The position numbers and the translations under genes are program-made. The notes under the pieces were generated by a model, which did no database searches, was not told the DNA's origin, and saw only the letters and a list, made by a program, of their open reading frames with translations. This document shows, piece by piece, positions 20,769-32,473 of a stretch of 32,838 bases of DNA. The stretch spans positions 1 to 32,838 of the forward strand of contig DUDM01000013.1 of NCBI GenBank assembly GCA_012959275.1. Reading direction: 5' to 3'. Source of the DNA: Candidatus Poseidoniales archaeon (GTDB taxonomy: Archaea; Thermoplasmatota; Poseidoniia; Poseidoniales; Poseidoniaceae). Positions within the stretch are counted from its first letter, which is position 1; each line of letters opens with the position of its first letter.

Positions 20769-20828
20769 GGATTGTCGGACCGCGGAACGGATTTGAACCC
20801 ATTCCCTTCAGAACCCCTTCCCAAATGC

Positions 20829-20845
20829 GCTACCTATGGTAGCGG
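20829..20845. other. Perfect hairpin cgctacc-tat-ggtagcg in the intergenic region
   Basis: 7 bp stem, 3 nt loop, upstream of the protease gene and next to a T-arm-like sequence. Confidence 0.4.
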
Positions 20846-20943
20846 TTGTCGCAAACAGACAAAATCACAACAATTTTTCTCCAAAAAAACTTCATTAACT
20901 GTTGCCATTAAATGAATAAAATATTGCTTAACAATCCCCGCGG

Positions 20944-20960
20944 CAGCCATTTTGTGGCTG
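20944..20960 (-). terminator. Candidate stem-loop downstream of the 215 aa protein gene
   Basis: cagcca-ttttg-tggctg, 6 bp stem, about 60 bp past the stop at 21020. Confidence 0.3.
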
Positions 20961-21019
20961 AAAGTAAGGTCCAATCACAAATTTGGTGAGAAAGGAATTG
21001 ATGCAACAATAATTGGAAA

Positions 21020-26422: not shown

Positions 26423-28909
26423 TCATCGACTAAACAATTGTTCGAGGCCACATTTCGGACAATCAACCAATACTTCGCTAACTCCTTGAGGAAGTTGTAC
26501 TGCGAAGGCCTGACCACAGGAACTGCAAGTTCCCTTTGAGCCAGAAGGCTTTGCTGCCGGTTGCTGTTGCGTAGTTTTTTGTTGAGGAACACTGACGCCG
26601 CCACTCTCTGAGGTTGAAATTGAAGGTACATTTTTCTTGACTTGACCAGGCTCCTCATCAACAAATAATGCCGCTGCATCTAATGCCGCAGCCTGTTGTG
26701 CTGAATCCAACGTTCGAGAAGTAGTTGTAGCGCCACCTGCGCCTGCCATAGCAGCAAACTCAGCATCTGCGCCGGCTCTAGAACTGGCTGGTGAAGCAAA
26801 CCCTGCGTTGGGGTTTGCCTGTGTTCCATCACCATAAAGTCGCTTCAATTCAGCCTGCTTTGCAGCCTCAGCCTTTTGCTCTTCAGTCATTTGTTGAGAA
26901 CTTTCACCGAGGCCTGCAAGAACCACGCTCTTTGCGAAGAATGAAGGTTTTTGAGTCTCCTTCACATGGTTCATTCTGACAACAGTTTCTTCATGGGAAA
27001 GACCATGTGAAGCCAATAATTGGCGAGCCATTCCCATCTCTTTTTGTCGCCACATGAAGGCACCTGCCCCAGCGCATATTACGAGGATTGCAATAACCGT
27101 CATCACAGTACCCATAATACTAGTTTTAGGAGCACTTTCAACATTAACAGTAAATGGAAATGAAGCTGTATTCCCGCTAGAATCTACCACATTCAAACGA
27201 ACTGATTCTTCCCTAACCTCTTGGAAAACAACATTTTGAACAGGCCCGCTTAATTCTGCATCATTCCACTTGATGCCGTCTCCATCCAAATCAGTATCAA
27301 GGTCAAAATCCCAACCATAAGTCAAGGTTGAATCATCATCCCAACTATCACTTGCGGCGTTTGATGCATCGAATACAACAACTTTTCCGGCAACAGCCGT
27401 TTCAGGAATGTTGACCTTGCTTTCATCAATTATCGGTTCGGTATTATCTACTACCTCGATCTCCAATTCTGTTCTAGCGGAATTTCCAGAAACGTCAGTG
27501 GCTTCCAATACCAAAGTATGATTGCCCAAAGAAGTCCAGCCTTTAGTCCAAACTTCATCAGAACTAACCTCGACTCCATCCAGACTCCAACGCTTACCAG
27601 CAATAATGTGGTCATCACTAACCTGAGCAGTAAATTCTACCATTTCGCCAACCGGAGCAAGAACCTGACCAAGGCTATTTGAACCTGTATTATGCACAAT
27701 TAAAACTGATGGATTGACTACATCAACAACGCTAATCTGATGACTAGCCTGCGCCTTTGCTCCGGTTGGAGTTGTTACTGTCAACAATACGCGATGACTA
27801 CCAGGGGTATTCCATGAAGTGCTAACTTTCCAGCCGGTTTTATCGACATCATTGTCAATATCCCCATCATTATCGGTATCCTCATCTAAATCTAAATCCC
27901 ATTCCAAAATTTGTATCTGACCTTGCCGATTAGCAGTAGATGTAGCATCAAACTCCACTGATTGCCCCAGCACAGCAGCATTTCCATCTAAGTCATCAAC
28001 TATCATCGGGTCCACGATAGGGTTAATTTCAACCTTTATCGAAACTCTTGATTCAGAAGAACCATCTCCGCCACCGACTGGAGTACCCTCATTATCGACC
28101 ATCAGGAATAATGGTTGGCCATCGTATTCTTGAGTCACGGTCCACAGCAAATTTGTTTGCTGCGAAAGTGAAAGCATTGAGGCCCCAGGAATATGGAAAC
28201 TTCCGCTTCCTTGGTTCAAGTAACTAGTTCGATGTGATTGATTCATCAAATATATATCTGGCATTCCTTGCATTGGCCATGCAGTTATGGAAATTTCACT
28301 CCCCGCATCCAAAGTTAATTCCTGAGAGCCTAGTATCTCCTCGTGGCTTCCCGAGTTCAATACACTCAAGCCGTTGAATGCCGTCCAATGTGAATTTTGA
28401 ACTTCATTTAACACAATTGAAACTGACGACGTAGAACCGCCCATATCTCCCTCATCACCATCATTATCATGGTCAAGGTTATCAAAAACTAAACGGAATT
28501 CTTCGTATTGGTCATTCGCATCAGGGCTCCAATGGAATGAATATGTGCCAGTTGCAGAAAGTATCGAAGAGTCTTCAACAGCGTGAAGGTGACTAAAGCC
28601 ACCAGCATAGGCATCGAATACATTATCGAGCATGAACATCAAATCGATGGCATCATCCGAAATATTAATTTCCAATTCCAAGACACTATTCGATGATACC
28701 ATGCCAATATCATAGATTCTGCATTGGCCATCCTCAACTTGGAAATTGCTCAGTCCTGAGGTTGAAACGGCAGTACAAACTACCGCATCTCTACCACTCG
28801 CTTCGACTGGTGAAACGGTCAATACGAGTGAAGAAATGAGCAGTAAGGCCAAGGCCAAATGGCTGCGCATATTTACGGCTACTCTCGCTTTCATTTGAAG
28901 CAAACCCAT
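26423..28909 (-). CDS. PKD/Ig-like repeat surface protein, single TM, cytoplasmic tail with C-terminal zinc ribbon
   Basis: Signal peptide then SGRDA; PKD-like segments (GQSVEFDATSTANRQGQIQILEWDLDLDEDTDNDGD; VVVFDASNAASDSWDDDSTLTYGWDFDLD); TM IMGTVMTVIAILVICAGAGAFMW; tail CSSCGQAFAVQLPQGVSEVLVDCPKCG. Confidence 0.85.
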   Translation of the reverse strand: MGLLQMKARVAVNMRSHLALALLLISSLVLTVSPVEASGRDAVVCTAVSTSGLSNFQVEDGQCRIYDIGMVSSNSVLELEINISDDAIDLMFMLDNVFDAYAGGFSHLHAVEDSSILSATGTYSFHWSPDANDQYEEFRLVFDNLDHDNDGDEGDMGGSTSSVSIVLNEVQNSHWTAFNGLSVLNSGSHEEILGSQELTLDAGSEISITAWPMQGMPDIYLMNQSHRTSYLNQGSGSFHIPGASMLSLSQQTNLLWTVTQEYDGQPLFLMVDNEGTPVGGGDGSSESRVSIKVEINPIVDPMIVDDLDGNAAVLGQSVEFDATSTANRQGQIQILEWDLDLDEDTDNDGDIDNDVDKTGWKVSTSWNTPGSHRVLLTVTTPTGAKAQASHQISVVDVVNPSVLIVHNTGSNSLGQVLAPVGEMVEFTAQVSDDHIIAGKRWSLDGVEVSSDEVWTKGWTSLGNHTLVLEATDVSGNSARTELEIEVVDNTEPIIDESKVNIPETAVAGKVVVFDASNAASDSWDDDSTLTYGWDFDLDTDLDGDGIKWNDAELSGPVQNVVFQEVREESVRLNVVDSSGNTASFPFTVNVESAPKTSIMGTVMTVIAILVICAGAGAFMWRQKEMGMARQLLASHGLSHEETVVRMNHVKETQKPSFFAKSVVLAGLGESSQQMTEEQKAEAAKQAELKRLYGDGTQANPNAGFASPASSRAGADAEFAAMAGAGGATTTSRTLDSAQQAAALDAAALFVDEEPGQVKKNVPSISTSESGGVSVPQQKTTQQQPAAKPSGSKGTCSSCGQAFAVQLPQGVSEVLVDCPKCGLEQLFSR

Positions 28910-28972
28910 AGTTGGTCCATCGCGCTTTGGACTATTTACCTATCAATCAACAGAAATGGCGTTTACCTCTCC

Positions 28973-29086
28973 CTCGCGAGCGCGCATATGCGCGGGTCAA
29001 CACACGCGACTGTTTCCCACGAGCAAAAGCAGTTTTCTAAGGTCTAAAACAAACACCTCGCGTACGCGGCCGTACGCGCCGCGCGA
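28973..29086. repeat. CG-rich cluster of palindromes in an otherwise AT-leaning intergenic region
   Basis: ctcgcgag (28973-28980), cgcgcatatgcgcg (28981-28994), cgcgtacgcg and a second cgtacg within 29059-29086. Confidence 0.6.
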
Positions 29087-29091
29087 CTACA

Positions 29092-29130
29092 CAGAAGATA
29101 CGGGTTCAGACCAGAAGATGGGGTTCAGAC
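29092..29130. repeat. Two-copy tandem repeat of about 20 bp
   Basis: cagaagatacgggttcagac followed directly by cagaagatggggttcagac. Confidence 0.75.
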
Positions 29131-29171
29131 AACTGTTTGAACGGAAAAGAAGACTATTTGGGAATGATAAC

Positions 29172-30326
29172 TCAAAATGAATCATGGAGTTGTGACCAAC
29201 CACGACCATCATACCTGAGGTGAGAAATGCCACCTTCCAAATCCATCTTGACAATATCTCCATCTACTGCAGCAGCGGTCGAAGGATGAATCTCTCGAGC
29301 CTCTGCCAATAATTGTGAAGTGTCTTCAATTCTTGAACTATAATGAGTCAACAACAAATGCTTAGCCGACATCTCCATTGCTGCATTAGCAGCATCTTGG
29401 GAGGTAGAATGCAACCACTGGCGGGCTCTATCCACTCTTTCGCTAGTATAAGTCGCCTCATGAATCAACAGAGTTGGCCCAACTTCAATCTTTGAGAAAG
29501 ATGGAGCACCTGCTCCCGTATCACCACTAATCAAAACACAGGGGGCAACTCTTGGAAGTCCACGGAAATCTTCAGCCTTCAATAATTCACCATCGATTTC
29601 TACATTTTCTCCGGCCGCAAGACTTCGCTTCTGCTCAGAATCAAGATTCATTTCGGATGCTTTTTCTCTTTCAAAGCGTCCAGCCTTGTCAGCAAGTTGA
29701 ATCGACCAGCCACAACTTGGAACAGAATGCAATGTCTCATGCGGGTGGACACATACTCCATCCATAAGCACTGGCGGGTTATCCAATAAACTACATTCTC
29801 CGCTTTCTGGGTTGAGTTTTAACCAACGTTCACCGATCGAAAAATCAACCGCAAACCAAGTGATATCATAACCAAGTTCTGAATTTGTTGCGCCAAGACT
29901 CCACCATTGTTGCCACTGGCGAGCCAAATCGACCTTGACGATTCCTGGGTCGTTCAAAATAGCATTTGCACCATTAGCCAACAGGGCATCAAATGAAATG
30001 TCAGAAATTGGACCTGCAACAGCTAATGGTTTGTTGCGTCCATCGAGCGACATAGTCTGCAACATCGGCAACACACCCCAACAATGGTCGAGATGTCCAT
30101 GAGTCAACAACAACAATCGCAGACGGGTGTGACGTAGGCGTTGTTTCATATCACAAGCCTTCAACTGTGAATTGTGGACTAACATTCTTTCTTGGAACCC
30201 CTCACCACAATCAACTACGATTTGGCCCGTCGGTGTATCTACTACAGAGCCAGAAACATGCCTGCCATGAGCAGGACGAGCCGATGAAACACCAAGCACA
30301 TGTACCTCTAGCATGACTGCACCCAA
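29172..30326 (-). CDS. rnz: RNase Z-like metallo-beta-lactamase-fold protein (tRNA 3' processing)
   Basis: LTHGHLDHCWGVLPML, VVDCGEGFQERM, ISGDTGAG, LIHEATY, LLTHYSSR. True start is possibly the internal MLEVHVLG Met (about 30314). Confidence 0.82.
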   Translation of the reverse strand: MGAVMLEVHVLGVSSARPAHGRHVSGSVVDTPTGQIVVDCGEGFQERMLVHNSQLKACDMKQRLRHTRLRLLLLTHGHLDHCWGVLPMLQTMSLDGRNKPLAVAGPISDISFDALLANGANAILNDPGIVKVDLARQWQQWWSLGATNSELGYDITWFAVDFSIGERWLKLNPESGECSLLDNPPVLMDGVCVHPHETLHSVPSCGWSIQLADKAGRFEREKASEMNLDSEQKRSLAAGENVEIDGELLKAEDFRGLPRVAPCVLISGDTGAGAPSFSKIEVGPTLLIHEATYTSERVDRARQWLHSTSQDAANAAMEMSAKHLLLTHYSSRIEDTSQLLAEAREIHPSTAAAVDGDIVKMDLEGGISHLRYDGRGWSQLHDSF

Positions 30327-30339
30327 AGCCTCGGACAGG

Positions 30340-30633
30340 TTAGGGGTTCTTTGGGATAGGGGTAGGTGGGAACCAGCGTAATATCACAACATCATTGATT
30401 CCACGCACCCATTTCCATGGAATTGCCAAGTGAATTCCACCTTCTACTAACTCCGGAGAGGTGTCTTTTACGAAGAGATGAGAACATTGCCAGTCTTCCT
30501 CATCGATGACCGTATCATGAACAATACCGACCTTTCTGCCATCTGCAAGGTAGACCCCGAGGCCCCTCATCGAAGATAGTCGCCTCTCGCCCACAAAACA
30601 CCTCAGAATGTAGCCCTCCATCAACATTGGCAC
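30340..30633 (-). CDS. Small PRC-barrel-like protein
   Basis: LGVYLADGRKVGIVHDTVIDEEDWQCSHLFVKDTSPELVEGGIHLAIPWKWVRGINDVVIL resembles PRC-barrel beta pattern. Confidence 0.6.
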   Translation of the reverse strand: MPMLMEGYILRCFVGERRLSSMRGLGVYLADGRKVGIVHDTVIDEEDWQCSHLFVKDTSPELVEGGIHLAIPWKWVRGINDVVILRWFPPTPIPKNP

Positions 30634-30667
30634 AAGAAAAGTACAAAATCACAAGAAGCGATGTGGC

Positions 30668-31756
30668 ATGAAGACTCATAATGAAGTAGAACAACGGCGA
30701 AGCATGGCCGACATTCCGATGATTGGAGACATGTCCATCACCGACGAGCATAAATTGGTTCCATTGAAGACCAAAATGAAGAAAATTCTTGATATTTTGA
30801 GGAATGAACCCTCAACGGCTATCATCCTTGCCGATGGAAAAGGAGAGAAGATGAAAATTGCTGGAGTGATAACCGCCGAAGATATTGACAAGGCTGTTGA
30901 TGCGGGCAAAAACCCGAAGAAACTTAGCGTTTCAGATGTCATGCTAACCAATATACTTGAAGTTCCAAATGATGTGCCAATCGACCAAGCCATAGAAGTC
31001 ATCGCCCAAAAAGGACCCGATGCTGTTATCGTACGCCATAAGAAAAATGGCGGCTTTGCTGGATACTTCAGTGTTGAAGATTACCAAGAGGCAAAAGGTA
31101 TCGTTGAATCTCAACAACAACGAGCCCAAGATTTCCAAAAGAATACCAAGGGTTTCGAGGGCCGCGCCCAAGCATTACAAAATCAACTTGAAGATGATGG
31201 TGCTGACGATGATGATGATGACTACATTCCTGCTGGAATGAAAGGATTACCAATCTCACCACAGATGAAGAGCGTATTCAAGTCAGTATCTCGCTCAAAG
31301 CCTGATGCAAGTAGAGCACCCGCAGCAAAACCCGACCTTTCCAATGATCCAAATCGGGTTAGCGTTGAAGCGCCAAGCGGGCCAGGGCGCGAGGTAAAGG
31401 GTACTTCAGGACCTCCTCAATCTCGTGGGCCACCCGGCAAAACGGCAGGACCTCCGAGTCGCGGACCTCCAGGGAGAAGCAAAAAAGAATCTGAGCCGGA
31501 GATGGAAACTGCTCGCCCAGCCGGCCCATCACTTCCAGGAGGAGGACCTCCTAATCGTGCACCCACCAGTGGTGGTGTCACAAACATTGGCGATGAGAAG
31601 GCTGGAGCCGTAGACCATAACACAACCCGCTCAAACAGGGGGGCGGTTGTCGCTGGCGGTGGTGGTAGTGATGAGCAGCCCTGTCCCTTTTGTGGAGAGA
31701 CAATCAAAGCCGCGGCCAAGAAATGCCGCTTCTGTATGGAATGGCTTGATAACTGA
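30668..31756 (+). CDS. CBS-domain-like protein with GPP-rich disordered linker and C-terminal zinc ribbon
   Basis: CBS-like IILADGKGEKMKIAGVITAEDI...VSDVMLTNILEVPNDVPIDQAIEVIAQKGPDAVIVRHKKNGGFAGYFSVEDY; tail CPFCGETIKAAAKKCRFCMEWL. Start may be the internal MADIPMIGD. Confidence 0.8.
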   Translation: MKTHNEVEQRRSMADIPMIGDMSITDEHKLVPLKTKMKKILDILRNEPSTAIILADGKGEKMKIAGVITAEDIDKAVDAGKNPKKLSVSDVMLTNILEVPNDVPIDQAIEVIAQKGPDAVIVRHKKNGGFAGYFSVEDYQEAKGIVESQQQRAQDFQKNTKGFEGRAQALQNQLEDDGADDDDDDYIPAGMKGLPISPQMKSVFKSVSRSKPDASRAPAAKPDLSNDPNRVSVEAPSGPGREVKGTSGPPQSRGPPGKTAGPPSRGPPGRSKKESEPEMETARPAGPSLPGGGPPNRAPTSGGVTNIGDEKAGAVDHNTTRSNRGAVVAGGGGSDEQPCPFCGETIKAAAKKCRFCMEWLDN

Positions 31757-31768
31757 ACTCTTGAAAAA

Positions 31769-32473
31769 ATGAGGGATTCGATGCAGTTAGAATGTCCAGT
31801 ATGTGCAGAACAGATTCCTGCTTCCAGTGAGGTTTGTCCAGTTTGTGCAGAGCCAACCAGTTTCTATGGAACAACAGGATTAGACGCTGATGATGGAGGA
31901 ATTGAATGTCCAGTTTGTGCCGAAGTAATCGACTTCTCCTCTGATGTTTGCCCTGTATGCGCCGAAGCAACAGGGTTTGGCGAGGCTGTTCCTGCGGGTG
32001 GCATTGAGTGTCCAGTATGCGCTGAAGTCATCGAACCCTCGTGTGATGTGTGCCCAGTATGCACAGAGCCAACCGGTTTCACAGACATGGGATATGTCGA
32101 TGATAGCATCGAGTGTCCAGTATGTGCAGAAAATATTCCTTCAGCGAGTCAAGTCTGTCCAGTTTGTGCAGAGCCCCTCGAAATGGTAGATAATACCGAA
32201 CCCATGATTGGTGAAAGCAAGGCCGAAATTCCTGATTCGGCTGTTGCCGACACCTTGATTCTCGACGCTCCAACTGCTGCTCCCGAGACTACGGATGCGG
32301 CTATGCCACCTTCCCATTCAGAGCACGACGAAGTTATGAGTGCCGATGATGAGACCTGGGATCTTGTCAAAGACAGCAACAACGTCGCTGATATCGAGTA
32401 TTATCTAGAGAATTATCCAACTGGGAAGTATTCAATTCCAGCCAAACTGAAACTGCGGCAATTGAGCCGCTGA
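31769..32473 (+). CDS. Tandem zinc-ribbon protein (four ECPVCAE...VCPVCAE units) with C-terminal helical motif
   Basis: Four units, eight CPVC knuckles; C-term WDLVKDSNNVADIEYYLENYPTGKYSIPAKLKLRQL. Confidence 0.85.
   Translation: MRDSMQLECPVCAEQIPASSEVCPVCAEPTSFYGTTGLDADDGGIECPVCAEVIDFSSDVCPVCAEATGFGEAVPAGGIECPVCAEVIEPSCDVCPVCTEPTGFTDMGYVDDSIECPVCAENIPSASQVCPVCAEPLEMVDNTEPMIGESKAEIPDSAVADTLILDAPTAAPETTDAAMPPSHSEHDEVMSADDETWDLVKDSNNVADIEYYLENYPTGKYSIPAKLKLRQLSR

Follow-up and report, generated by a model that had tools for sequence, protein, structure and literature searches.

A probable 63-nucleotide templated insertion from a PKD surface protein gene into the linker of a nearby zinc-ribbon protein gene in a Poseidoniaceae archaeon

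Replication template switching yields reverse-complement copies (PMC8794818). The insertions attributed to template switching, and more generally to templated repair (MMBIR/FoSTeS and end joining with filler DNA), consist of a short copy of same-genome DNA in reverse orientation, with the source kept, no homologous target and scant homology at the junctions, and all of this also holds for the locus described here. The best-studied template switches have a shorter range than 4.7 kb. Here the source lies 4.7 kb away and not in the immediate neighbourhood, and the product is an in-frame peptide insertion that was kept as coding sequence. A second comparison concerns the Rickettsia palindromic elements, in-frame intragenic repeats of a MITE-like kind (PMC10969869). 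These likewise place tens of codons in frame into an unrelated protein gene, but they form a repeat family of about 150 nt, whereas the present case comprises one source and one copy of 63 nt, lacks terminal repeats and has ordinary PKD coding DNA as its source. Finally, domain shuffling among archaeal surface and zinc-ribbon proteins likewise moves a piece of protein between unrelated genes, although the piece found here is sub-domain in size and was placed in a linker. A literature search recovered no published report of the event, and to our knowledge the family has no cultured member.

The window (the whole stretch analysed, 32,838 nt of a contig of genome G000) contains a PKD-type surface protein gene and a tandem zinc-ribbon protein gene, for which an initial annotation had noted a shared segment of 22 codons. 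Both peptide readings were confirmed (Table 1), as were the reported 56 identical nucleotides out of 66, a count that includes the last codon of that reading, and the run of 17 identical bases at one end, which are the first 17 bases of the segment (GTAGATAATACCGAACC). The portion that proved to be copied, referred to below as the graft, is identical to the source tract at 55 of its 63 nucleotides. In a comparison of the window against itself the two genes supplied the single inverted pair, in which the zinc-ribbon arm listed in Table 1 matches 27388-27459 (E 5.7e-16 within the window; E 8.5e-17 in the genome assembly of 1.92 Mb, which is 77% complete). The arms are separated by 4718 nt, in line with the earlier statement that the two genes lie some 4.7 kb apart in opposite orientation. 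The runner-up among ungapped 63-mers in the window reached 33 matches out of 63, and no third copy was present in the assembly (1.92 Mb, 77% complete). When the source DNA was searched against 171 genomes of the family, high scores were obtained only for the source itself, its orthologue in genome G002 and the graft. Elsewhere the score was at most 38 bits, compared to 81.5 bits for this pair, and the similarity is therefore far better than that between any two PKD-like domain borders. The looser resemblance that had been read beyond the segment (VVVFDASNAA versus LILDAPTAA) falls outside the copied piece: the sequence ...APTAAPE is native to the zinc-ribbon linker of the sister genomes, and thus the copy does not extend past 32249.

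Table 1. Positions in the window of the two genes, the source and the graft
Feature	Position	Strand	Description
Donor gene	26423-28909	-	828 aa; Pfam PKD_4 4.7e-11
Shared segment, PKD side	27386-27451	-	reads VDNTEPIIDESKVNIPETAVAG
Source tract	27389-27451	-	63 nt, codons 487-507, VDNTEPIIDESKVNIPETAVA
Recipient gene (listed start)	31769-32473	+	tandem CPVCAE double zinc ribbons; Pfam DZR 1.3e-11
Zinc-ribbon-encoding repeats	31790-32175	+	four degenerate direct repeats, ~65 nt, spacing 102-114
Full extent of similarity	32178-32249	+	72 nt, 85%; includes shared TCGA just upstream of the junction
Shared segment, zinc-ribbon side	32186-32251	+	reads VDNTEPMIGESKAEIPDSAVAD
Graft	32186-32248	+	63 nt, 21 in-frame codons, VDNTEPMIGESKAEIPDSAVA

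The donor protein starts with a signal-peptide-like N-terminus, followed by a PKD/Ig-like array, a transmembrane helix and a C-terminal tail that ends in a CxxC...CxxC motif. Homologs were found in 150 of the 171 family genomes, spread over all 11 genera. A structure model of residues 302-702, which shows a long helix, places the source tract at model residues 186-206 (local pLDDT around 80), where it takes in the final part of the last strand of a PKD-like domain, the linker, and the short first strand of the domain that follows; the segment had indeed been described as an inter-domain boundary. The description of the pair as two zinc-ribbon proteins reflects a coincidence that explains nothing about the transfer: the one zinc-ribbon-like motif of the donor is weak (Pfam Zn_ribbon_8, 0.024, below cut-off) and located at the far C-terminus, around 290 residues from the copied piece.

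The recipient protein is made up of zinc ribbons, an Ala/Pro-rich linker and a short C-terminal helical tail. Its true start is probably at 31781, four codons past the listed one (31769-31784 region), considering that GAGG sits shortly before the ATG at that position and that a stop codon of G002 sits between the two candidate starts. Within the genus, full-length relatives were recovered in G002, G004 and G005 only, and G001 and G003 gave partial matches; the named relatives derive from an uncultured euryarchaeote MAG, a Candidatus Poseidoniaceae MAG (ETNP7_MAG_77) and a Euryarchaeota MAG (bin107o), which assigns the window to a marine Group II archaeon of the Ca. Poseidoniaceae. The graft begins 10 nt past the last zinc-ribbon repeat and falls in a stretch of low pLDDT between the fourth repeat and the tail (below 50 over residues 134-188, in a model that is weak evidence as its alignment held four sequences). 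The linker that holds it is presumably disordered. It is also the least conserved part of the gene, with 78% nucleotide identity to G002 compared to 90-92% for the other parts, and its length differs among the congeners. In G001 the helical tail of the zinc-ribbon protein forms the end of the CBS gene (L034:2259-3809, contig C91), where it follows TGPADPLEDIDIGGAR-type repeats; tandem zinc ribbons are absent from the visible sequence of this gene, and part of the reading frame reads N.

The direction of the copying follows from the sister genomes. The closest relative, G002, can be followed in collinear order across almost the entire window (91.9% nucleotide identity), and its zinc-ribbon gene lacks exactly the 63 nt of the graft, between GAAATG and GAAACC. 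The graft is likewise missing from the orthologues in G004 and G005, with flanks that can be aligned on both sides in all three genomes, while each of the five genomes of the genus in which the PKD gene was found has inherited the source tract. Because the three recipient orthologues lack the piece and the five PKD genes keep it, the comparison of these sequences indicates that it went from the PKD gene to the zinc-ribbon gene, on the G000 branch only. A single insertion on that branch explains the distribution, whereas the opposite direction would require several exact losses. Each species is represented by one genome, and the insertion was seen in G000 alone. As to confirmation within the species, a degenerate pattern of the junction gave no match in viral contigs, and the genome collection yielded only three congeners. 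The donor and recipient genes are similarly arranged in G002 and G004, around 4-5 kb apart, and the source was therefore nearby at the time of copying. The duplication that had been proposed for the pair is thus borne out and has now acquired a direction. It had also been called recent, which is apt insofar as the insertion most likely post-dates the split from G002 (92% nucleotide identity), and less so insofar as the copy has since gained around 7 substitutions.

Taken together, we consider it likely that the graft is a templated insertion, with source, direction and branch given by the sister comparison, copied by what we infer to have been template switching or microhomology-assisted repair, and near-neutral in its effect. 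The PKD gene of the same genome retains the source (55/63, E 8.5e-17 in the assembly), and the insertion is absent from the ancestral state as represented by the orthologues of G002, G004 and G005. Synthesis would have halted within the linker of the zinc-ribbon gene on the G000 branch and would briefly have resumed at a distance of 4.7 kb with the PKD gene as template, of which 63 nt would have been copied in inverted orientation before the return to the original template, leaving the PKD source intact. By chance the copy preserved both the frame and the sense of reading, and the zinc-ribbon protein thus gained 21 residues in the flexible linker that connects the last zinc ribbon to the C-terminal helical tail. 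In register, the microhomology amounts to 1 nt at either junction, and a shared TCGA lies 4 nt upstream of the left one; comparison of the junctions revealed no direct repeat or duplication flanking the insert. Such minimal microhomology neither proves nor excludes template switching as against the capture of a stray fragment. The event is real and probably a one-off, a well-polarised case of what is likely an already known type of mutation.

It is unlikely that the insertion is older than the split from G002 and was precisely lost there, or that a grafted allele was recombined in from an unsampled relative, although certain substitutions could be read that way. The graft carries GAA for N as does the PKD gene of G005, and TCG for T as do those of G001 and G004. 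These states may be ancestral instead of new, and since they occur in more distant PKD genes too, the polarisation is imperfect. In addition, the ATG codon of the graft looks older than the ATA of the present source. Against this, an older insertion needs an exact deletion in G002, and the silent divergence between G000 and G002, 0.29 in both genes, is no higher in the recipient (dS 0.293) than in the PKD gene (dS 0.289).

The changes that accumulated after copying bear on function. The copy differs from the source at 8 of 63 nucleotides, and of these differences 1 is silent and 7 are nonsynonymous. At one of the 8 positions it was probably the source that changed, as the graft and the PKD gene of G002 share the other base, which leaves around 7 changes in the graft. 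Unconstrained DNA of this length should collect around 9 changes along one complete branch, taken as half the dS of 0.29 multiplied by 63, whereas constraint as in the PKD gene (dN 0.043) predicts around 1 nonsynonymous change. The observed number suggests that the graft evolves at about the neutral rate, without strong constraint beyond the maintenance of the frame. Position and substitution pattern thus suggest a tolerated filler, that is a longer flexible linker that is functionally near-neutral. The 7 to 1 ratio and the open reading frame could also be taken as signs of an adaptive graft, a longer and acidic linker that alters the spacing or the interactions of the zinc-ribbon protein. We regard this as improbable, given that the total of changes is near and not above the neutral expectation, that the insert sits in the fastest-changing region of the protein, which is modelled with low confidence, that linker length varies among the congeners regardless, and that the downstream tail demands an open frame whatever the insert does.

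An assembly artefact in the form of a chimeric contig is very improbable, even though the assembly is fragmented and 77% complete. A chimera formed within the genome would be identical to its source, whereas the copy is 13% different and in frame. Moreover, orthologous recipient sequence flanks the graft on both sides, and the graft is 8-9 differences away from both known PKD alleles, which differ from each other by 5.

A small in-frame mobile element, similar to a Rickettsia palindromic element or a MITE, is hardly tenable: the insert does lie in frame inside a gene, and its strand folds better than that of the source (-17.3 versus -8.0 kcal/mol), with 6 of 7 graft differences creating pairs, but the genome assembly contains only two copies, one of which is native PKD coding sequence that is itself not palindromic, further copies are absent from the 171 family genomes, and neither a target duplication nor terminal inverted repeats were seen when the junctions were compared by eye. 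A dispersed element was rejected on the same count of copies, within the own genome and the 171 family genomes. The hairpin was noticed post hoc, and it is matched by random substitutions in 195 out of 20,000 trials (p ~0.01); according to a hand analysis a single local switch event cannot explain both of its arms. We therefore take it as a hint that deserves little weight. Gene conversion and a domain graft, both offered in the initial annotation, can be put aside, the former since the change is a net insertion of 63 nt and the sister recipients contain nothing homologous that could have been overwritten, the latter as too strong a term for an inter-domain linker plus one beta-strand, which is not a folding unit.

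The graft represents an unusually clean natural case in which the source, the target, the branch, the frame and the later decay of a peptide gained from an unrelated neighbour can all be read. If such grafts were recurrent in the marine Group II archaea, they would constitute a measurable source of new peptides in an abundant uncultured group. Stretches of G000 (728 kb) and G002 (548 kb), of which 246 kb could be aligned, were surveyed for insertions by counting the breaks between alignments only, a procedure that misses insertions inside one alignment (roughly those below 40 nt). Six insertions of at least ~27 nt were recovered, three in each direction, and the graft was the only one with a detectable template in the surveyed sequence. 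The 246 kb thus give no sign of frequent templated insertions. A weaker parallel to the graft is found at the adjacent CBS/zinc-ribbon gene, whose 3' end (31678-31775) recurs as a 98-nt copy with 90% identity at 4976-5073 of contig C15 of G000 (L105). The copy covers the terminal zinc ribbon, the stop codon and downstream DNA, and closes what seems to be a CBS-domain paralogue, split over contigs C59 and C15. In G005 this tail is missing from the equivalent CBS gene, which continues into a peptidyl-prolyl isomerase. G002 contained no match to that region except the CBS tail itself. On one reading, short templated grafts recurrently build the zinc-ribbon and CBS proteins of this lineage, the same locus being the recipient of the PKD piece and the apparent source of the 98-nt copy, and local switches may have perfected the hairpin of the graft; this reading seems unlikely.

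Other insertions and repeats were observed in the same sequence. An intergenic insertion of 112 nt relative to G002 is located at 20892-21003, and nothing similar occurs elsewhere in the own genome assembly that could have been its template. Its flank (~20780-20850) appears tRNA-like by eye; ARAGORN reports no tRNA there. A further intergenic insertion relative to G002, of 40 nt (29112-29151), appears by eye to be a tandem duplication of the adjacent CAGAAGAT..GGGTTCAGAC. The remaining short repeats in the surveyed part of G000 comprised a tRNA-Leu pair, Asp-rich (TSP3-like) repeats, a contig overlap and local repeats.
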